A stretch of 12,888 nucleotides of DNA. Origin: an uncultured Haloferula sp. (GTDB lineage Bacteria; Verrucomicrobiota; Verrucomicrobiae; Verrucomicrobiales; Akkermansiaceae). The stretch's first letter is position 1. Each line of letters begins with the position of its first letter. Position numbers and translations under genes: made by a program. The DNA is taken from assembly GCA_946481625.1 (NCBI GenBank), contig CAMLOZ010000029.1:1-12888 (forward strand). The letters are read 5' to 3'. The notes beneath the pieces are model-generated. The model worked only from the letters and a program-made list of their open reading frames with translations, did not search any database and was not told the origin of the DNA. Of this stretch, positions 2,444 to 11,042 are shown in pieces.

Positions 2444-4597
2444 TCAAGCGAGTTCCTCCGGTGCCCCCGCATCCAGGCGCCGGCGATAGCTCTCCACCGC
2501 CTGCGTCCATGTCGAGTGAATCCCTTCCGCCGGTCTCAGCCATACGGCGCGATGAAGCGCCAGCATGCCCGGAGCGAGATACATCAGCTCGATCATCTCA
2601 TCCTTCGACATCGCGCCCGGTCCCATGTTGAGGCAGCGCTCGACCAAGGCATCGCTGGTTTCGGTCATCTCGCCGGGCTCAAGCAAGGAGACGTGGACGC
2701 CGTTGACATAAGGGTCCACCACCGCGGCCACCACGCCCTGACGCGCGTGCTGCGTGGCGTCCAAGGCGGGATCGACGGCGGCGTGCGCCATGTCCGCCAG
2801 CTTGAGCACCTCCGGCGGATTCAATTCCTCGGGAGTGGAAAGGATCTTGTGTCTCGCCAAGGCCTTGCCGTAGCGGGCCCGGCTGGTCCAGACCGACACC
2901 GGAATACAGAGGATCAGGCCAAGCAGGATCGGCGACATCCAGGCGGCGAAGGTCGGGCTGATATACCAGGCCAGCACCGCCCAGGCGATGCCCAGCACGG
3001 TGGGAGCGGCATGCACGGTGAGTGCCTCGCCCCAGCTCGTGCCGTCCGTCTCGCGGTTCTGGCTGCCCCAGCCGACGGCATGGCCCAGAACGATGCCCGA
3101 GACCATCAGCGTGTGCGCCACCATCACCGCGGGGGCCAGCAGCATCGAAAGCAGCGTTTCGAGGAAGGTGCCTGCCAGCAACGCAAACAAGCCGCCGAAG
3201 GATCGCCGGATGCGGGGCACGAAGATCGCCCCGGTCATCGCGAGGATCTTCGGCAGGAAGAGCAGCAGGAAAATGAACCCGGTGAGGATGAGGCTCTGGG
3301 TCACGCCGTCGATGTGCAGGTAGCGGTCCACCAAGGTGCCGTCGTAGGGTAGATTGCTCAGTCCGCTGGCCTCGCGGTCCCAGGCCACCCACGTGCCGAA
3401 GATGAGGAACAGGAACCACAGCGGGCTGCCGAGGTAGGCCATGATGCCCATGAAGAGATGCATGCGCACCGTGAGCGGCAGCTTGCGGGCGAAGATCAGC
3501 CACAGGTGCTGGAGGTTCCCCTGGCACCAGCGGCGGTCGCGCTTGAGGTGGTCGATCAGCGTGGGCGGGGCTTCCTCGTAGGTGCCTTCGATGTCCCAGG
3601 CGAGCCAGACCTCCCAGCCCTGCGATACCATCAGCGCGGCTTCGACGAAGTCGTGGCTCAAGATCTTGCCGCCGAAGGGTTCGCGTCCCGGCAGGTCGGG
3701 AAGCTCGCAGAAATCCGAGAACGGCTTCACGCGGATCAAGGCGTTGTGACCCCAGTAGCTGCCGCCGCCCAGTTGCCACCAGTTCAGGCCGCGGATGAAG
3801 AGCGGACCGTAAAGCCGCATCGCGAACTGCTGGAGACGGGTGAACGCGGAAGCGCCGCGGATCAGCTTCGGCGGGGTCTGGAGGATGCCGAGGTTCGGAT
3901 AGGCCTCCATCACCCGGGTCATCTTCAGGATGTCGCCGCCGTCCATCAGGCTGTCGGCATCGAGCACGACCATTCCCTCGTAGCCTCCCCCCCAGGTCCG
4001 GACGAAGTCGCCGATGTTGCCCGCCTTGCGGTTCGAGTTGATTTTACGGCGCCGGTAGTAGATGCGGCCGAAGCCCCCGAGCTTGCGGCAGAGGTTGGTC
4101 CAGGCGGTTTCCTCCAGCACCCACAGGTCGAGATCGCGGGTGTCGCTGAGAATGAAGAAATCGAAGGACTTGATGTGTCCCGTCGCTTCGATGGAGCGGT
4201 AGATCGCCTCGATCCGCGCGCAGAAACGCACGCAATCCTCGTTGTAAACCGGCATCACCACCGCGTAGCGATGGGCGAGGGGGGCGTCCCCGGCTTGCTC
4301 GGCCAGCTTCGTGATCCTCACCGCGCGCTTCCTGCCCCACAGGATATCCCAAGCGCCGAAGAGGGCATGGAAGGAACCGAGCACGAGCAGTCCGTTGAGG
4401 ATAAAGAACACCCCGAGCAGCAGCACGTGGGCACGGTGCATGCCCATGCGCGTGAAGAGATCGTACAGCCAATAGGTCGCCGCCAGGTTGACCACGACCA
4501 CGCTGCCGAAGAACACGAGCCTCCGGAACCACGCGCGCACGGGGCTGAAATGGGGCCGCACCTCCTTGCGGCCTTCTGGTGCGTGCTCGTCCATCAT
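2444..4597 (-). CDS. opgH: Osmoregulated periplasmic glucan glucosyltransferase OpgH (MdoH), short form
   Basis: An inner-membrane family 2 glycosyltransferase of 717 residues. By family knowledge it builds the beta-1,2-linked glucose backbone of osmoregulated periplasmic glucans from UDP-glucose and moves it across the membrane. Two N-terminal transmembrane segments (about 25-46 and 57-80) precede the catalytic domain. That domain carries MPVYNED (115-121), SDTRD (151-155), the LDADS metal/UDP motif (212-216), QQFAMRLYGPLF (256-267), LSHDFVEA (313-320) and KRDRRW (352-357, the QxxRW-class motif). At least five more hydrophobic segments lie between about 378 and 572, and the last 145 residues are cytoplasmic-like. 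E. coli OpgH is 847 residues with roughly 130 residues before its first helix; here only about 22 are present. I placed the start at ATG 4597, which overlaps the stop of the preceding gene as ATGA; a longer GTG-type start at 4696 would run through that gene. It is the third member of a tightly overlapping trio with opgG. Confidence 0.95.
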   Translation of the reverse strand: MMDEHAPEGRKEVRPHFSPVRAWFRRLVFFGSVVVVNLAATYWLYDLFTRMGMHRAHVLLLGVFFILNGLLVLGSFHALFGAWDILWGRKRAVRITKLAEQAGDAPLAHRYAVVMPVYNEDCVRFCARIEAIYRSIEATGHIKSFDFFILSDTRDLDLWVLEETAWTNLCRKLGGFGRIYYRRRKINSNRKAGNIGDFVRTWGGGYEGMVVLDADSLMDGGDILKMTRVMEAYPNLGILQTPPKLIRGASAFTRLQQFAMRLYGPLFIRGLNWWQLGGGSYWGHNALIRVKPFSDFCELPDLPGREPFGGKILSHDFVEAALMVSQGWEVWLAWDIEGTYEEAPPTLIDHLKRDRRWCQGNLQHLWLIFARKLPLTVRMHLFMGIMAYLGSPLWFLFLIFGTWVAWDREASGLSNLPYDGTLVDRYLHIDGVTQSLILTGFIFLLLFLPKILAMTGAIFVPRIRRSFGGLFALLAGTFLETLLSMLLAPAVMVAHTLMVSGIVLGHAVGWGSQNRETDGTSWGEALTVHAAPTVLGIAWAVLAWYISPTFAAWMSPILLGLILCIPVSVWTSRARYGKALARHKILSTPEELNPPEVLKLADMAHAAVDPALDATQHARQGVVAAVVDPYVNGVHVSLLEPGEMTETSDALVERCLNMGPGAMSKDEMIELMYLAPGMLALHRAVWLRPAEGIHSTWTQAVESYRRRLDAGAPEELA

Positions 4598-5184
4598 GCG
4601 AAGAATATGAACCAGACCATCGCGCCGATCAGGGCCAGCAGGAACATCGCGAACATCTTCCGCACGATCGGACGGCGATCCATCGTTTCCCACCACTGCG
4701 CCGCACCGGTGCCGATGACATTCAGCTCAAGCGGCTTCGGCACCATGGTCAGGGTGGCGAAGCGCGGACCCGCCGCGAGGTAGGACTTCTGCATCGACTC
4801 GGTGAAGGCCGGCGGCCAGGGCGGCGGGGTCAGGAAGACCCCCTGCCATTTCCCCGGCATGTCCGCCAGCAGCAGCGCGAGGCGGCCGCGCGCCGCGAGA
4901 CGCATGTTCTCCAGCGGTTCGTCCAGCACCTCCTGGGTCCAGCGGGCGATCTCGGTCAGGGTTTCTTCCATCGCCAGCACGCGGGCCGGTACGCCGGGCT
5001 CCCTCGCGCCGCGCGCGGATGCCCGCCAGAGGATGGCACGCACCAGTTCCGCGACCAGCAGGCGGTTGCGCAAGCGCAGGGCCTGAAGATAGGCCTCCAC
5101 CGCCGCGTAGGCCTCCTCCCACTCGGAGAGCTCGGTTTCGCTCAGCGGCCGCAGCGTTTCTAAGGGATGATGCGGTAGGCCCAT
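4594..5184 (-). CDS. Unrecognised tail-anchored protein between opgG and opgH
   Basis: A 196-residue frame runs from ATG 5184, inside the 3' end of opgG, to a TGA at 4594 that overlaps the opgH start as ATGA. Without it, about 560 bp between opgG and opgH would be empty, so a real gene is likely. Residues 15-105 are strongly helical and charged (for example ELSEWEEAYAAVEAYL, then LRLRNRLLVAELVRAIL), suggesting a helical bundle or coiled coil. A Pro/Trp-rich stretch, LTPPPWPPAF, lies at 118-127. The C-terminus is one hydrophobic helix (about 177-195) preceded by DRRPIVRK, which fits a tail anchor with the bulk of the protein in the cytoplasm. Residues 147-165 (MVPKPLELN, then a Trp pair) faintly recall the MFPDPWRTN...W segment that I remember ahead of the first helix in E. 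coli OpgH. My inference is a detached N-terminal module of OpgH or an assembly partner. The start is uncertain: GTG or CTG codons further in are possible, and the overlapping ATG lacks a close ribosome-binding site. Confidence 0.75.
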   Translation of the reverse strand: MGLPHHPLETLRPLSETELSEWEEAYAAVEAYLQALRLRNRLLVAELVRAILWRASARGAREPGVPARVLAMEETLTEIARWTQEVLDEPLENMRLAARGRLALLLADMPGKWQGVFLTPPPWPPAFTESMQKSYLAAGPRFATLTMVPKPLELNVIGTGAAQWWETMDRRPIVRKMFAMFLLALIGAMVWFIFFA

Positions 5185-6719
5185 GTTTCGGTCAGGAAAT
5201 CCTCGCCCTTCTTCAGGCTGCAGCGCAACTCCTGCGGGCCGACATCGGCCAGCTTGCCGCCCTCGGCGGCAGGGGTGATCTGGAAGGCGGCGCGCCAGCG
5301 CCCCTCCGGGAGCGGTTGCACCGCCACACCTTGGATCTTGATCTTGGCTCCGGCCTCGCCCACCGCGGTCACCACCGCCTGTGGAGGCTCGCCTTCCCAC
5401 TTCTCCAGCGGACCGCCGGCGAACTCGACCACGATCGTGCGCTGCTCCGGCTGCCAATCGTGCAGGCCGGTGCGGGTCGCGACCACTCTCCCACCGGCTT
5501 GGGACGGGTCCTCTTCCATGGTCCAGTGCTGCTTGTAGGAGAATTCGATGCGCTCGCCCGGCTGGGGCGTGTGGGCGGGCTCCCACAGGGCCACGGTGTT
5601 GTCGGAAATCTCGTTGTGCGTCGGGATCTCCATCAGCATCACCCGGCCGGAGCCCCAGTCGCTGGTCGGTTCGATCCACAGGGAGGGGCGTTTTTCGTAG
5701 GAAGCTTCCGCGTCCTCGTAGGCGGCGAAGCGGCGGTCCCGCTGCAGCAGGCCGAAGCCTTCGCACTTGTCCATCGAGAAGAAGCTGAGTTCCAGGCGCC
5801 CGGTATCATTGGTGATCGGGCGCCAGATCCGCTCGCCGCTGCTCATCTTGATCGCAAGCCCGTCGGAATCGTGGACCTCGGGGCGGAAATCATCGAAGCG
5901 GCGGCGCGAGTTCTCGCCGAACCAGAACATGCTCGACATGGGGGCCAGGCCGAGCCGGGTCACCGCGCGGCGGGCGTAGAGGACCACGCGCACCGTCATC
6001 ACGGTGTCCTCGCCGGGCTGGATGAAGAAGCCGTAGGCACCGGTGTAGGACGGGCCGTCCAGCAGCGCGAAAAGCATCGCCGCCTTGTCATCGGGAGTCG
6101 GCTTGCGCAGCCAGAATTCCCGGAAGGCGGGGAACTCCTCCTTGCCGTCGATCCCCGTATCGACCGCGATCCCGCGGGCCGAGATGCCGTAGCGCTGGTC
6201 CTTGCCGAGTGCCCGCCAGTAGCTCGCGCCCTGGAAGACCGCCAGTTCGTCGAAGTAGTCCGGCTTGTTGAGCGGGGCGTGATAGCGCACTCCGGCGAAG
6301 CCGGTTTCCGGCGGCAGTTCGCCCCGCTGCTGGATGAGTGAACCGTAGTTGAAAAAAGCCTCTGACAGCCGGATCCGCTGCTGGTGGGTATCCGTGAACT
6401 CGTTGACGGCCACCGGCTCCCGGAAGAGATAGCCCGGATGGAAAAGCATCGCGCGGAAGGGCAGCTTCTCCGCACCCCACAGCGCCCGATCGGGATTGAA
6501 GCGGATGTCCCGGTACTGGTCGTAGCTCAGGTTCTTCATCCAGTCCGGCAGCGCTTCCGGATTGGGGGCCGCATAGGGCTGGGCCGCCAGTGCCTTGGCC
6601 CGGGCATCGATCTTCTCGAAAGTCACATCTTCCCGCTCCCAGTCCTGGCCCGCGGCGAGGGGGGCGAGTGCCAAGGCTGCCGTTAGATGGATAATGCGAT
6701 GAACCACAAGCCAGCGCAT
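5160..6719 (-). CDS. opgG: Periplasmic glucan biosynthesis protein OpgG (MdoG)
   Basis: A 519-residue exported protein of the MdoG/OpgD family (the E. coli protein is about 511), needed with OpgH to make osmoregulated periplasmic glucans. The related E. coli proteins OpgD and OpgG are now placed in glycoside hydrolase family GH186, so a role in cutting or shaping beta-1,2-glucan is plausible. A signal peptide occupies residues 1-25 (MRWLVVHRIIHLTAALALAP, then LAAGQ before DWERED). Family landmarks include LSYDQYRDIRFNP (64-76), GASYWRALGKDQRYGISARG (164-183), AVDTG (185-189), EVHDSDGLAI (281-290), RPSLWIEPTSDWGSGRVMLM (344-363), EIPTHNE (364-370) and a C-terminal immunoglobulin-like segment ending YRIIP. 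I chose ATG at 6719 because the signal peptide starts there; the frame continues upstream to 6794 with no signal-like sequence. It overlaps the next gene by 25 nt and lies 96 nt after the phosphatase gene, in a gap that contains possible promoter elements. Confidence 0.95.
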   Translation of the reverse strand: MRWLVVHRIIHLTAALALAPLAAGQDWEREDVTFEKIDARAKALAAQPYAAPNPEALPDWMKNLSYDQYRDIRFNPDRALWGAEKLPFRAMLFHPGYLFREPVAVNEFTDTHQQRIRLSEAFFNYGSLIQQRGELPPETGFAGVRYHAPLNKPDYFDELAVFQGASYWRALGKDQRYGISARGIAVDTGIDGKEEFPAFREFWLRKPTPDDKAAMLFALLDGPSYTGAYGFFIQPGEDTVMTVRVVLYARRAVTRLGLAPMSSMFWFGENSRRRFDDFRPEVHDSDGLAIKMSSGERIWRPITNDTGRLELSFFSMDKCEGFGLLQRDRRFAAYEDAEASYEKRPSLWIEPTSDWGSGRVMLMEIPTHNEISDNTVALWEPAHTPQPGERIEFSYKQHWTMEEDPSQAGGRVVATRTGLHDWQPEQRTIVVEFAGGPLEKWEGEPPQAVVTAVGEAGAKIKIQGVAVQPLPEGRWRAAFQITPAAEGGKLADVGPQELRCSLKKGEDFLTETWAYRIIP

Positions 6720-6815: not shown

Positions 6816-7304
6816 CTACAGGCGGGAGCGCAGTTGCCCCAGCAAGCCGCTGCATGCGTCTTCCACCAGGTCCGCGACTTCCTCGAATCCGCGCTGGCCG
6901 CCGTAATAGGGGTCGGGGACACGCGGGGCGTCGTGGTTTTCGCAAAACTCCACCAGCAGCTTGATCTTGGAGGAGCGGCTGCCGTCGCGGTCGAGACGAC
7001 GGACATCGGCGAGGTTTTCCTCGTCCGCCACGAGGATCAGGTCGAAGTCGTCCAGGTCTTCCGGCGTGACCTGCCGGGCCCGGCCGAAGATCGGATAGCC
7101 GCGCGCTTTCAAGGTGGCGGCCATGCGGGGATCGGGCCCCTTGCCGGCGTGATAGCCGATGGTTCCGGCGGAATCGAGTTCCACCCGGTCCGCCAGGTCG
7201 CTCTCCGCCAGCATCTTTTTACAGACAATTTCGGCCGCCGGCGAACGACAGATGTTGCCCATGCAAACAAAGAGGACCCGGAACGGCTTGCGCTGGTTGG
7301 ACAT
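6816..7304 (-). CDS. Low-molecular-weight protein tyrosine phosphatase
   Basis: A 162-residue cytoplasmic enzyme that hydrolyses phosphotyrosine, or in some relatives phosphoarginine, through a cysteinyl-phosphate intermediate. The P-loop CX5R reads CMGNICRS (C14 to R20, with S21), preceded by a hydrophobic strand. DSAGT follows at 44-48, LILVAD at 89-94, and the general acid is D131 in the PDPYYGG loop (130-136). All catalytic residues are present, so it should be active. I chose ATG at 7304 because family homology starts just after it; upstream in-frame ATGs at 7325 and 7334 would overlap the divergent sulfatase gene. It heads the minus-strand unit leading into opgG. In other bacteria such enzymes (Wzb/Etp type) pair with tyrosine kinases that control polysaccharide synthesis or export, but no kinase is visible here, so a link to glucan synthesis is only suggestive. 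Confidence 0.93.
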   Translation of the reverse strand: MSNQRKPFRVLFVCMGNICRSPAAEIVCKKMLAESDLADRVELDSAGTIGYHAGKGPDPRMAATLKARGYPIFGRARQVTPEDLDDFDLILVADEENLADVRRLDRDGSRSSKIKLLVEFCENHDAPRVPDPYYGGQRGFEEVADLVEDACSGLLGQLRSRL

Positions 7305-7323
7305 CGCGTGGAAAAGCTGCGGC
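7305..7323. promoter_or_regulatory. 19-bp divergent gap between the phosphatase and sulfatase starts
   Basis: Only 19 bp separate the two opposing start codons, so the promoters of each gene must lie within the 5' coding region of the other. A GGAAAAG (7310-7316) with 7-nt spacing serves as a good ribosome-binding site for the sulfatase; nothing comparable precedes the phosphatase ATG. The sulfatase ATG is part of the palindrome GCATGC (7322-7327), which also holds a minus-strand ATG in the phosphatase frame. Confidence 0.5.
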
Positions 7324-9126
7324 ATGCTCCGCATTTCCGCTCTGGCGGCAATTTCAATCGCGCTCATGGGCCTTCTTCCCGCCGCGCCGACGAACGTGAT
7401 CGTGGTGATCACCGATGACCAGGGTTACGGCGATCTCTCCGCCCACGGCAGCCCGGACATGAAGACGCCGGCACTGGACAAGTTCCGCGGGGAATCGACC
7501 GCCTTCGACCGCTTCCAGGTCAGCCCGACCTGCGCGCCGACCCGCGCCGCGCTGATGACCGGCCTCCACGAGTTCCGCTGCGGCGTGAGCCACACGCTCA
7601 TGGGGCGCAGCCTGCTGAAGCCGGGGATTCCGACGCTGCCGGAGATGCTCCGGTCCGCGGGCTACCGCACCGGGATCTTCGGCAAGTGGCACTTGGGCGA
7701 TGCCTATCCCTGCCGCCCCGAGGACCGCGGCTTTGAAGACATCTTCGTCCATGGCGGCGGGGGCATCGGCCAGACTCCCGACTACTGGGGAAACTCCTAC
7801 TTCGATCCGATGATCCGCAGGCGGTCCGGCTGGGAAAAAACGAGCGGCTATTGCACCGATGTCTTCTTCAACGAGGCGATCGGCTGGATGAAGGGCCGTG
7901 TGGCGGAGAAGAAGCCCTTCTTCCTCCATCTCGCGACCAATGCCCCGCATGCCCCGTACATCCCGCCCGCCGGCGGACCGCAGGACGAAGCAGGGGCTTT
8001 CCTTGCCATGATCCAGACTATCGACACGAACTTCGGCCGCTTGATGGCGGCGGTGGGGGAGGCCGGTATCGGGGATGACACCATCGTGATCTTCCTGACG
8101 GACAACGGGTCGGCGATGGCGAGGCCCGGTGCCGGGATGAAAGGCAGGAAAGGCACTCCGGACGAAGGCGGGACCCGCGTGCCCTGCTTCATCCGCTGGC
8201 CGGGCAAGATCAAGGCGGGACACGAGGTCAAGGAGCTGGCCGCCCACCTCGACCTGCTTCCCACCCTTGCGGGTTTGTGCGGAATCGAGCGCCCGGCGGG
8301 GTGGAAGGGCGACGGGATCGACTTGTCGCAGGCCCTCCTCGGCAAGGCCGACTTCCCCAAGGACCGCGTGATTTTCACCCAGGTCGGGCGCTGGAGGGGC
8401 GACGAGGCGGCTTCGCGGTTCAGGGCCCGGGACTTCGCGGTGCGCGACGCCCGCTGGCGCTTGGTCGGTCTGGAACTCTTCGACATGCAGGCCGACCCGG
8501 AGCAGAAGCAAAACGTGTTCACCGATCACCCGGCGGAGGCGCAGCGATTGCTGACCGCGTACGGGCGCTGGTGGGACGAGATCCTGCCGGTCGTCCGCGA
8601 ACCGGTGCGCTGCGTCATCGGCTCCGAAGAGTGCCCGCTGGTCCGCCTCACCGCGCACGATTGGTGGCCCTCGAAGGAAACGGAGGCCTCGGGCGCGGAA
8701 GCCTGCGTTACCCACGATTCCATCAAACGCCTGCTCAAGTCCGCCCAGGTCGCGGCGACGCGCAACCCGCTGCCCTCCACCTCGGGCCATTGGAAACTGC
8801 ACTCCGCCCGCGAAGGAAACTACGAGATCGTCTTCGCCCTCCTGCCTCCCGAAGCAAGCCCCGCGGAACGGAGCGAACTCGCGAAACTGCGGAAGGGAAT
8901 CGCCCACATCCGCGCGGGCCAGGAAGAGATCCAACTGGAGATCCGGGAGGGAGCGAGCTCCTTCAAGATGCCCATGGACCTGGAGGCCGGTCCGCTGGAC
9001 CTGGAAGTCTGGTTCGACGGGCAGCTCCTGAACCAGCGGATTCTCGGCGCTTTCTTCGCCAGCATCGAATACAAGGGCCCCCGCAAGGCACCGAAAGTGG
9101 AGCTGAAGCCGAAGGTGGCGAAGTGA
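7324..9126 (+). CDS. Secreted sulfatase of the formylglycine (S1/arylsulfatase) type
   Basis: A 600-residue hydrolase for sulfate esters, most likely on sulfated polysaccharides or glycosaminoglycans. A short signal peptide spans about residues 1-21 (MLRISALAAISIALMGLLPA). The active-site set is complete: metal-binding D31-D32 in VVITDDQGYGD, the maturation motif C70-A-P-T-R74 within CAPTRAALMTG (C70 becomes formylglycine), GKWHLG (120-125, K121 and H123), NAPHAPY (206-212, H209), LTDNGS (258-263, D260 and N261) and KGRKGTPDEGG (273-283). Residues from about 430 to 600 extend beyond the sulfatase core as a beta-rich C-terminal region (GHWKLHSAREGNYEIVFALL onward), as I recall in planctomycete and verrucomicrobial sulfatases. 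I chose ATG at 7324 because the signal peptide starts there and a GGAAAAG lies 7 nt upstream. No maturation enzyme is in the window, so it must be encoded elsewhere. The next gene follows after 61 nt. The exact substrate cannot be read from sequence. Confidence 0.94.
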   Translation: MLRISALAAISIALMGLLPAAPTNVIVVITDDQGYGDLSAHGSPDMKTPALDKFRGESTAFDRFQVSPTCAPTRAALMTGLHEFRCGVSHTLMGRSLLKPGIPTLPEMLRSAGYRTGIFGKWHLGDAYPCRPEDRGFEDIFVHGGGGIGQTPDYWGNSYFDPMIRRRSGWEKTSGYCTDVFFNEAIGWMKGRVAEKKPFFLHLATNAPHAPYIPPAGGPQDEAGAFLAMIQTIDTNFGRLMAAVGEAGIGDDTIVIFLTDNGSAMARPGAGMKGRKGTPDEGGTRVPCFIRWPGKIKAGHEVKELAAHLDLLPTLAGLCGIERPAGWKGDGIDLSQALLGKADFPKDRVIFTQVGRWRGDEAASRFRARDFAVRDARWRLVGLELFDMQADPEQKQNVFTDHPAEAQRLLTAYGRWWDEILPVVREPVRCVIGSEECPLVRLTAHDWWPSKETEASGAEACVTHDSIKRLLKSAQVAATRNPLPSTSGHWKLHSAREGNYEIVFALLPPEASPAERSELAKLRKGIAHIRAGQEEIQLEIREGASSFKMPMDLEAGPLDLEVWFDGQLLNQRILGAFFASIEYKGPRKAPKVELKPKVAK

Positions 9127-9187
9127 GAGTTCCGGCGCAACTTTGCTTGGAAGAAAGGGTTCTCATGCACCGGAGATCGATCCCATC

Positions 9188-10552
9188 ATGAAAAACACCG
9201 CCACCATCGGAATCGCCGCCCTCCTCGCAGGAGCGGCCGGAGGCTACCTCGCCGGCAAGGCGGGCTCCTCCGAAGACAGCGCGAAGACCAAGGCCGAAGA
9301 GGTCATGAACGCGAAGGCCCAATCCCGGCCCGGCTCCTCGTCTGCCACGGAGGCCGGCAAGCGCGAGCGCAACATGGACCAGATCCTCCGCGAGCCCGGC
9401 CAACTGGCACGCATGCAGGGATTGATGGACCTCTATGCCGGCATGGATGCCGCCCAGCTCGAGGCGGAGGCGGCCAAGCTCGACCAGCTTCCGATGGCGC
9501 AGCGGATCATGGCATCCTTCCTCCTGTTCGGTCGCTGGGGCGAGATCGACCCGCAGGGCGCTCTGGCCTTCGCGAACACGATGGGCTTCGGCGGGGCCTT
9601 CGTCCGCCCGACGATCCTCCAGAGCTGGGCCAGCTCGGATCCGGAAAACGCGGCCAAGTATTTCAGCGAGAATCCGCGCGAGTTCGCCATGATGGGCTTC
9701 GGTCCCGGCGGCGGCGGTCCCGGCGGCGGCGACAGCGGAGCCGGGACGATCGCGGCGGAGTGGGCGAAGCTCGATCCCGATGCGGCGCTTGCCTGGGCGA
9801 ACACGCTCAGCGGCCGCGACAAGGGCGCCGCGCTCAATGCCGTGATCGGCGAGATGGCGTCCAAGGATCCCAACAAGGCGGTCGCCGTGGCAGCCACCTT
9901 GAGTGGCGACGATCAAACGCGGGCCTACAGCGAGATCGCGGAGAAGTGGGGCTTGAAGGACTTCGCCGCCGCGGAAGCATGGATCAACAGCCTGCCCGCC
10001 GAAGCCCGCGACCGTGCGATGGCTTCCGCGCTCGAGAGCTACGCGACCACCGATCCGGTGGCCGCGGCTGCCAAGGTGGCGCAGATGCCCGCCGGCGAGG
10101 ATCGGGACCGGGCCATCGAAGACGTGGCCGGCCCGTGGGCCCGCAAGGATCCCGCCGCCGCCGCCGCGTGGGTGGCCCAGCAGCAGACCGAGGACATCGA
10201 CGATGCAATCCGCCCGGTGATGTCCAGTTGGGCGAACATGGATCCCGCCGCCGCGAAGACGTGGATCGGCTCCCTGCCCCAGGGGGAACTCCGCGACGAG
10301 GCCACGGCGACTTACATCTGGTCGAGCCGCAGCGCCGACCCTCAGGATTCCCTCCAGCTTGCGGAATCGATTTCCGACGAAGGCACCCGCAACCGCACGG
10401 TCGGGATGACCGCATGGCGCTGGATGCAGGAAGACCGCGAGGCGGCGACCACTTACATCCAGAGTTCCACCTCGCTCAGCGACGAAGCCAAGGAACGCCT
10501 GCTCGAAGGGCGCGGGGGCTGGGGTGGCCGGCGCGGTCGCGGAGGCAATTGA
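9188..10552 (+). CDS. Membrane-anchored alpha-helical 'W..DP.AA' repeat protein
   Basis: A 454-residue protein with an N-terminal hydrophobic segment (about 5-23, ATIGIAALLAGAAGGYLAG) that acts as a signal anchor or uncleaved signal; no lipobox cysteine is present. After a charged linker, residues about 115-440 consist of some ten degenerate repeats of about 31 residues with the pattern W-x4-DP-x-AA-x2-W followed by a Leu/Pro turn and a second helix. The Asp of the DP (or D) position falls at 121, 151, 196, 227, 258, 289, 321, 352, 384 and 416. The single 45-residue gap is explained by a Gly/Pro-rich insertion at 172-186. The helix-turn-helix periodicity suggests a TPR-like or Sel1-like solenoid for protein-protein contact, outside the cytoplasmic membrane. 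The C-terminus is a short Gly/Arg/Trp tail (441-454). I chose ATG at 9188, with a GGAG 12 nt upstream, because the hydrophobic segment starts there. It follows the sulfatase by 61 nt and ends just before a terminator. I know no named family for it; function is unknown. Confidence 0.85.
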   Translation: MKNTATIGIAALLAGAAGGYLAGKAGSSEDSAKTKAEEVMNAKAQSRPGSSSATEAGKRERNMDQILREPGQLARMQGLMDLYAGMDAAQLEAEAAKLDQLPMAQRIMASFLLFGRWGEIDPQGALAFANTMGFGGAFVRPTILQSWASSDPENAAKYFSENPREFAMMGFGPGGGGPGGGDSGAGTIAAEWAKLDPDAALAWANTLSGRDKGAALNAVIGEMASKDPNKAVAVAATLSGDDQTRAYSEIAEKWGLKDFAAAEAWINSLPAEARDRAMASALESYATTDPVAAAAKVAQMPAGEDRDRAIEDVAGPWARKDPAAAAAWVAQQQTEDIDDAIRPVMSSWANMDPAAAKTWIGSLPQGELRDEATATYIWSSRSADPQDSLQLAESISDEGTRNRTVGMTAWRWMQEDREAATTYIQSSTSLSDEAKERLLEGRGGWGGRRGRGGN

Positions 10553-10610: not shown

Positions 10611-11042
10611 ATGTGGAATCCACCGGATACCTACGCCATTGCACGCATCGATCTGCCAAGGGCCGGAACGCACGGTTGGCAGGTGCGGATCCAGCGGCGC
10701 GGGGTGAAGTACGGGAAGTTCTTCGCGGACGGCGTCCATGGCGGCATGCCGGACTCCTACCAGGCGGCGCTGCGCTGGCGGGACGAGCTCGTGGAACGCT
10801 TGACCGGAGAGGAGAATGCCGCCCGGATCTGCCGCCGCTCGCCCCGGAATTCATCCGGGGTGGTGGGGGTCTCGAAGGTCCGTGTGACCGCGGCGAACGG
10901 CACCGGCTACTGGTTCTGGCAAGCCACCTGGTGCCCGGCCCCCGGCGAGCGGCGCTGCGTGAAGTTCTCCGTGAAACGGCACGGGGAGAAGCAGGCCTTC
11001 CGGCTCGCGGTGGAGGCGAGGAAGACGGGAGCGGGCTTGTGA
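10611..11042 (+). CDS. Small AP2/ERF-like domain protein
   Basis: A 143-residue basic protein. Residues about 82-137 match the pattern of bacterial AP2-like domains: GVVGVSKVRV, then WFWQATWCPAPG, then KFSVKRHGEKQAFRLAVEAR, the last block being the typical helix and its lead-in. The N-terminal part (9-62), with GWQVRIQRRGVKYGKFFADG followed by SYQAALRWRDEL, has a similar strand-strand-strand-helix layout and may be a second, divergent copy. AP2 folds bind DNA in plant transcription factors and in phage or mobile homing endonucleases; no nuclease domain is visible here, so a DNA-binding role is inferred. The ATG at 10611 begins 3 nt after a terminator T-run, leaving no space for a ribosome-binding site outside the terminator. 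Translation may be leaderless, or the true start may lie further in. A cluster of palindromes begins 1 nt after the stop codon. Confidence 0.75.
   Translation: MWNPPDTYAIARIDLPRAGTHGWQVRIQRRGVKYGKFFADGVHGGMPDSYQAALRWRDELVERLTGEENAARICRRSPRNSSGVVGVSKVRVTAANGTGYWFWQATWCPAPGERRCVKFSVKRHGEKQAFRLAVEARKTGAGL

Follow-up and report, generated by a model that had tools for sequence, protein, structure and literature searches.

A 196-residue protein, here called X, is encoded between opgG and opgH in the window (the whole Haloferula stretch analysed, 12,888 nucleotides). X probably supplies in trans, through a self-anchored chain, a motif segment that would dock on OpgH for glucan synthesis, while E. 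coli OpgH holds the corresponding segment in cis. No published name for X was found in the literature searched. The genes concerned and their junction are as follows.

4594..5184, minus strand: X, 196-aa protein between opgG and opgH (frame, homologues, codon statistics, OpgH co-occurrence)
5160..5184, minus strand: overlap of the opgG end with the X start, 25 nt (same overlap in 55/77 relative loci)
5160..6719, minus strand: opgG, periplasmic glucan biosynthesis protein (PF04349, 3.4e-178), its presumed start set at the ATG preceding a hydrophobic leader
2444..4597, minus strand: opgH, 717-aa glucan glucosyltransferase with the long N-terminal extension absent and the C-terminal region present (NF003958, 2.9e-237)

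X is a genuine, conserved coding gene and not a chance ORF. Its frame occupies 196 codons (5184..4594), the opgG stop ends at 5160, and the X stop codon TGA (4596..4594) overlaps the start of opgH. Two consecutive ATGs are present there, one at 4597..4595, forming an ATGA overlap with X, and one at 4594..4592, leaving an overlap of 1 nt. Both overlaps described in the initial annotation, 25 nt with opgG and ATGA with opgH, are confirmed at the window locus. A protein search returned 788 homologues of X at E<=1e-3. GC content per codon position is 0.69/0.48/0.87, and in comparisons with each of 12 relatives most differences fall at codon position 3 (for example 9/5/60). Lack of a conserved frame in related genomes, or third-position statistics unlike those of coding DNA, had been named beforehand as refuting the proposal; the frame is conserved in relatives, and the statistics are coding-like.

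The best 80 of 115 relatives yielded 79 loci, among which the nearest to the window is that of Haloferula sp. BvORR071 (93% identity). The order opgG-X-opgH recurs across these loci, the exceptions being contig ends and broken frames. In the same set, the X-opgG overlap is exactly 25 nt in 55 of the 77 loci with the opgG end found, and the X-opgH overlap, by a nearest-start rule, is 1 nt in 36 of the 76 loci with an opgH start. Such overlaps suggest that X may be translationally coupled to opgG and opgH, without fixing stoichiometry.

Other genes of the window do not share this regularity. The gene for a low-molecular-weight phosphatase that immediately precedes opgG (6816-7412, minus strand) has a match in only one of the 79 loci, located away from opgG; 69 of the 79 extend 2.3 kb upstream of X. 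When seven other window genes, the phosphatase gene included, were compared, a gluQ-like gene recurred in 4/79 loci and a peptidyl-prolyl isomerase gene in 3/79, and the remaining four had no match in the 79 relative loci. Two further ORFs of the window, both on the plus strand, were noted: a 143-codon ORF (10611-11042) whose match to the AP2 domain falls short of the cut-off (E 6.9e-5), and a 469-codon ORF (9143-10552) with repeated W...DP.AA units recognized by eye and no Pfam match.

The survey of opgG-x-opgH neighbourhoods suggested by the initial annotation was extended over 387 Verrucomicrobiota genomes, with OpgH called at E<=1e-100. OpgH was detected in 79 genomes and X in 68, every one of them among those 79, and in 65 of the 68 the X gene immediately precedes opgH. 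In the other three (G015, G121 and G298; loci L138, L139 and L140) X adjoins opgG, and opgH is located elsewhere in the same genome. The fixed stoichiometry that had been read from the overlaps is unsupported, X being with opgG and away from opgH in these 3/68 genomes.

The 11 OpgH genomes without an X match were inspected separately. A local profile search disclosed a divergent X in three of them; one has a positional ORF with a hydrophobic C-terminal helix, six have a positional ORF without a hydrophobic helix, and one ends at a contig edge. The helix-less ORFs at the X place (6/79 OpgH genomes) have a best 19-residue hydropathy of 0.58-1.14. Among the seven ORFs at this place, one with and six without a helix, five were assigned by position alone, and those of L133 and L134 match the X profile at its first helices (22.7; 0/100 shuffles). 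At four loci (L126, L128, L129 and L131), two opgG-like genes in tandem are followed by a helix-less ORF of 139-156 codons and then by opgH.

The structure of X was modelled with AlphaFold2 from 34 alignment rows (mean pLDDT 73.6), and three parts can be distinguished.

4765..5139, minus strand: X residues 16-140, predicted helical domain, taken as cytoplasmic (pLDDT 62-91 per ten-residue block)
4720..4752, minus strand: X residues 145-155, LTMVPKPLELN, conserved linker motif common to the OpgH N-terminus (hhalign)
4600..4671, minus strand: X residues 172-195, C-terminal membrane helix after basic residues (model and sequence)

The model has helices within residues 16-144, a segment with pLDDT below 50 at residues 142-166, and helices at 159-169 and 172-195, the last agreeing with the membrane helix proposed earlier for the end of X. 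A hydrophobic window of 19 residues (hydropathy >= 1.6) is present in 93/95 members of the X family, a set of 95 out of 148 sequences after redundancy filtering. Because the last helix is hydrophobic and follows a run of basic residues, the N-terminal domain is likely cytoplasmic. A PDB fold search with the X model found no match.

DotU/TssL proteins have the same outline, a helical cytoplasmic domain with a C-terminal membrane helix, and the public automatic name of one X homologue, P0010 of Luteolibacter flavescens, begins with "Type IV / VI secretion syste", which we take to mean DotU. That X is a DotU/TssL-like protein is nevertheless highly improbable. No Pfam DotU match at E<=10 was obtained in 17 A1 members or five further proteins, and hhalign gave a probability of 0.7% against one verrucomicrobial DotU protein, the one readable of four loci. 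Moreover, the examined X loci have opgG adjacent, and opgH too except in the three genomes mentioned. The Pfam and hhalign tests speak against the DotU/TssL identity, and the name of P0010 is unsupported by profile tests. A different role could be imagined for the helical domain, which is conserved within Verrucomicrobiota and has no assigned family: it might be a docking part through which X brings some soluble factor to the synthase, for example acyl carrier protein, described as essential in this E. coli pathway by the title of a 1986 paper cited in PMC10514313. We regard such a recruiting function as quite unlikely.

The partner of X differs from its E. coli counterpart at the N-terminus. 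In the alignment with the E. coli-type model NF003955, model position 202 corresponds to residue 58 of the window OpgH, as expected from the earlier description of an OpgH without the long N-terminus, and the alignment reaches position 844 of 855. Judged from this alignment, the window OpgH lacks the N-terminal extension and keeps the C-terminal one. In E. coli OpgH, both extensions fold into an added cytoplasmic part, according to a Caulobacter paper (PMC11389396). OpgH-N, defined as residues 1-138 in E. coli, is reported to bind and inhibit FtsZ and to be well conserved in Enterobacteriales (Hill et al., PMC3723540). The same paper states that an 18-residue peptide, given as 83-101, is enough to inhibit division and to localise at midcell, and that OpgH-N with alanine changes in, or deletion of, 83-101 still inhibits division. 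Residues 83-101 of E. coli OpgH read EAKRSSMFPDPWRTNPVGR, 19 residues by count, and constitute the segment that X has in common with OpgH.

For comparison, 44 of 123 OpgH proteins, all beta/gamma-proteobacterial, were kept as an N-terminal set. The motif M-x-P-x-x-W is present in 42 of these 44 N-termini (37 by pattern, 5 by reading) and lacks Met in the other two (P0172 and P0173). Before the first membrane helix it appears as SSMFPDPW (E. coli SMFPDPW) or SSMVPRQW (Cupriavidus SMVPRQW), and further strings are ASMVPRPW and, in Mitsuaria, AMVPRPW. The linker of X reads T-M-V-P-K-P-L, with Met 147 conserved in 92/95 and Pro 149 in 81/95 non-redundant family members; divergent linkers are SSMVPRQIDLG, SSMVPRPLD and TSMVPEKIDMG. 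At the sequence level, the motif extends beyond Enterobacteriales: beta-proteobacteria have it as well, and Verrucomicrobiota have it in trans.

A profile search of X against OpgH N-termini, also suggested at the outset, located the match at the motif segment. The X family profile aligned to the 44 N-termini with an hhalign score of 35.7, a probability of 67% and E 5.2e-5 as a single pair. This score was reached by none of 500 column shuffles (maximum 20.3), and the matched region joins X ~97-170 to OpgH-N 49-107 in E. coli numbering. A 75-row X profile, built from 75 of the 79 locus sequences (L016, cut, and L054, L057 and L058, with broken or mis-started frames, were left out), scored 32.4, as high as none of 400 shuffles (maximum 24.4); the reversed profile scored 16.4. 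Against full-length OpgH the same N-terminal place was best (E 7.8e-4; next match E 0.5), also after removal of the X membrane helix, at hhalign probabilities of 21-25% (25% at E 7.8e-4). An OpgH-N profile was in addition used with HMMER on 92 test sequences and 552 decoys; ranks 1-17 were X proteins in one register and rank 18 was a decoy, the single-sequence scores being weak (top 9.2 bits). The faint resemblance of X residues 147-165 to the segment before the first OpgH helix, perceived in the initial annotation, is in this way borne out.

The arrangement around the match is also similar. In both families it precedes a membrane helix and reaches upstream to a W-P pair, and the structures predicted for X and for Kosakonia OpgH each contain a folded domain, a low-confidence motif and a membrane helix. 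The Kosakonia model reaches a modest mean pLDDT of 73.1 (58-62 in the other four models). E. coli OpgH-N resembles X in that a folded domain precedes the motif segment and a membrane helix follows it, with the motif at low confidence in the Kosakonia model. Unlike E. coli OpgH-N, X forms a chain of its own, which includes a membrane helix and a helical domain without detectable kinship. X 1-95 compared with OpgH-N gave E 0.33 in hhalign, a profile miss with which a shared fold is still compatible. The suggestion that X is part of a split OpgH is consequently supported for X ~97-170, where the profile match lies, and unsupported for the helical domain.

The stretch common to X and OpgH-N is short, which is a caveat to the reading of X as a segment supplied in trans. 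Also counting against this reading are the hhalign probabilities, the six helix-less ORFs, the two OpgH N-termini in which the motif has no Met, the modest Kosakonia model, and the lack of a profile match for OpgI-like proteins and two alpha-proteobacterial OpgH N-termini. The limited match, together with the absence of one in X 1-95, would also fit an operon-specific accessory or assembly subunit, not derived from OpgH, in which M-x-P-x-x-[LW] arose separately and both motifs bind the same surface. In the models, helices of the X domain are longer than those of OpgH-N, whose domain has a short beta hairpin, and X stays with opgG in the three genomes where opgH lies elsewhere, both in keeping with such a subunit. 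However, none of the 500 shuffles equals the match, which in both families is followed by a membrane helix and continues upstream to the W-P pair. In addition, a 99/99 branch of the OpgH tree has on the same side the OpgH proteins accompanied by X and those that contain the segment themselves. We consider an independent origin possible, if doubtful.

The OpgH tree (28 rows) places Verrucomicrobiota and Leptospira in one group (99/98), with Leptospira inside, and beta/gamma-proteobacterial proteins in another (100/99). Both groups and Acetobacter share one side of the 99/99 branch, without a resolved order among them. Because of this grouping, one change between cis and trans, in either direction, would explain the distribution.

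Related arrangements exist outside Verrucomicrobiota. Leptospira plasmids carry opgG-x-opgH, with x annotated as 122 and 129 aa. Like X, this protein occupies the place between opgG and opgH and holds an SMVP motif (SMVPRNLDF or SMVPKDSEW) followed by a hydrophobic C-terminus, and its match to the X profile falls on the first helices (24.0; 0/100 shuffles). It differs in being shorter and in matching the OpgH-N profile weakly (15.3; 1/100 shuffles as high).

OpgI of the Rhodobacter-type opgGIH operon is, like X, encoded by a small same-strand gene between opgG and opgH, and a 2002 paper reportedly found it to be needed for glucan backbone synthesis. PMC10514313 states that opgI and opgH of Rhodobacter sphaeroides opgGIH complement an E. 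coli opgH mutant. X is a real conserved subunit, in a position where a small gene is already known from Rhodobacter opgGIH, a precedent absent from the initial annotation. A Sulfitobacter plasmid has the order opgG-(60 aa)-opgH-opgC, with the 60-aa gene overlapping opgG by 16 nt. Its OpgI-like product differs from X in its 60-aa length, with no apparent membrane helix and no significant profile match. This OpgI-like protein shows a weak likeness to the N-terminus of the OpgH model NF003962 (E 0.026) and to that of Sphingomonas OpgH (8/14 identical, E 0.024, single pair). On a Qingshengfaniella plasmid, too, an unannotated OpgI-like ORF (L185:2687-2875), containing APLAMPKQAL, lies between opgG and opgH.

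OpgH-N compared with the OpgI-like rows (two from Sulfitobacter, one from Qingshengfaniella) scored 9.3, with 56/100 shuffles as high, and X compared with these rows pooled with two alpha-proteobacterial OpgH N-termini scored 8.6, with 73/100 as high. Overall, the OpgI-like proteins and the two alpha-proteobacterial N-termini gave no profile match (56-81/100 shuffles as high). For this reason OpgI is treated as a positional precedent and not as a demonstrated homologue.

OpgH N-termini of plasmid loci L080-L088, L142-L145 and L184-L187 were compared by eye with the presence of annotated opgG. For most OpgH proteins accompanied by opgG the motif is present, either in the same chain or in trans; in Azospirillum and Dinoroseobacter it is absent despite the presence of opgG. 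By the same inspection, OpgH of Methylosinus, SC52 and Acetobacter, with no annotated opgG adjacent, showed no M-x-P motif in the N-terminus read, and Neorhizobium OpgH, with no opgG annotated beside it, has SGMPVAW there. A link between the motif and opgG is possible.

In the organization we favour, that of a motif segment delivered to OpgH by X, a single E. coli-type OpgH chain comprises a small folded domain, a flexible S-S-M-[FV]-P-x-x-W stretch and the first membrane helix. In Verrucomicrobiota the flexible stretch would belong to another polypeptide, which provides a helical domain before it and a membrane helix after it, this helix replacing the covalent link as a tether to OpgH. The motif would most likely dock on the cytoplasmic face of OpgH, at the glycosyltransferase or the C-terminal region, and would be needed for glucan synthesis or regulate it. 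Service in glucan synthesis is suggested by the co-occurrence of X with OpgH and by the opgI precedent. X might alternatively be a detached OpgH-N that wires division control, an anchored counterpart of the FtsZ-blocking peptide, freed or hidden by UDP-glucose-bound OpgH, so that a separable subunit, instead of a domain of a moonlighting enzyme, would determine cell size; we find this unlikely.

The unnamed gene, widespread in a phylum, can thereby be assigned to a known enzyme as its likely partner. The examined beta/gamma-proteobacterial OpgH proteins conserve the peptide for which FtsZ inhibition was reported, and Verrucomicrobiota conserve it in trans; because of this conservation in cis and in trans, sequence comparison suggests that its first job may be in glucan synthesis, with FtsZ binding coming later or being shared. 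Verrucomicrobiota offer a natural experiment in which an OpgH N-terminal segment, in-chain in E. coli, has its own gene, and this separate gene would make the role of the segment accessible to ordinary genetics.
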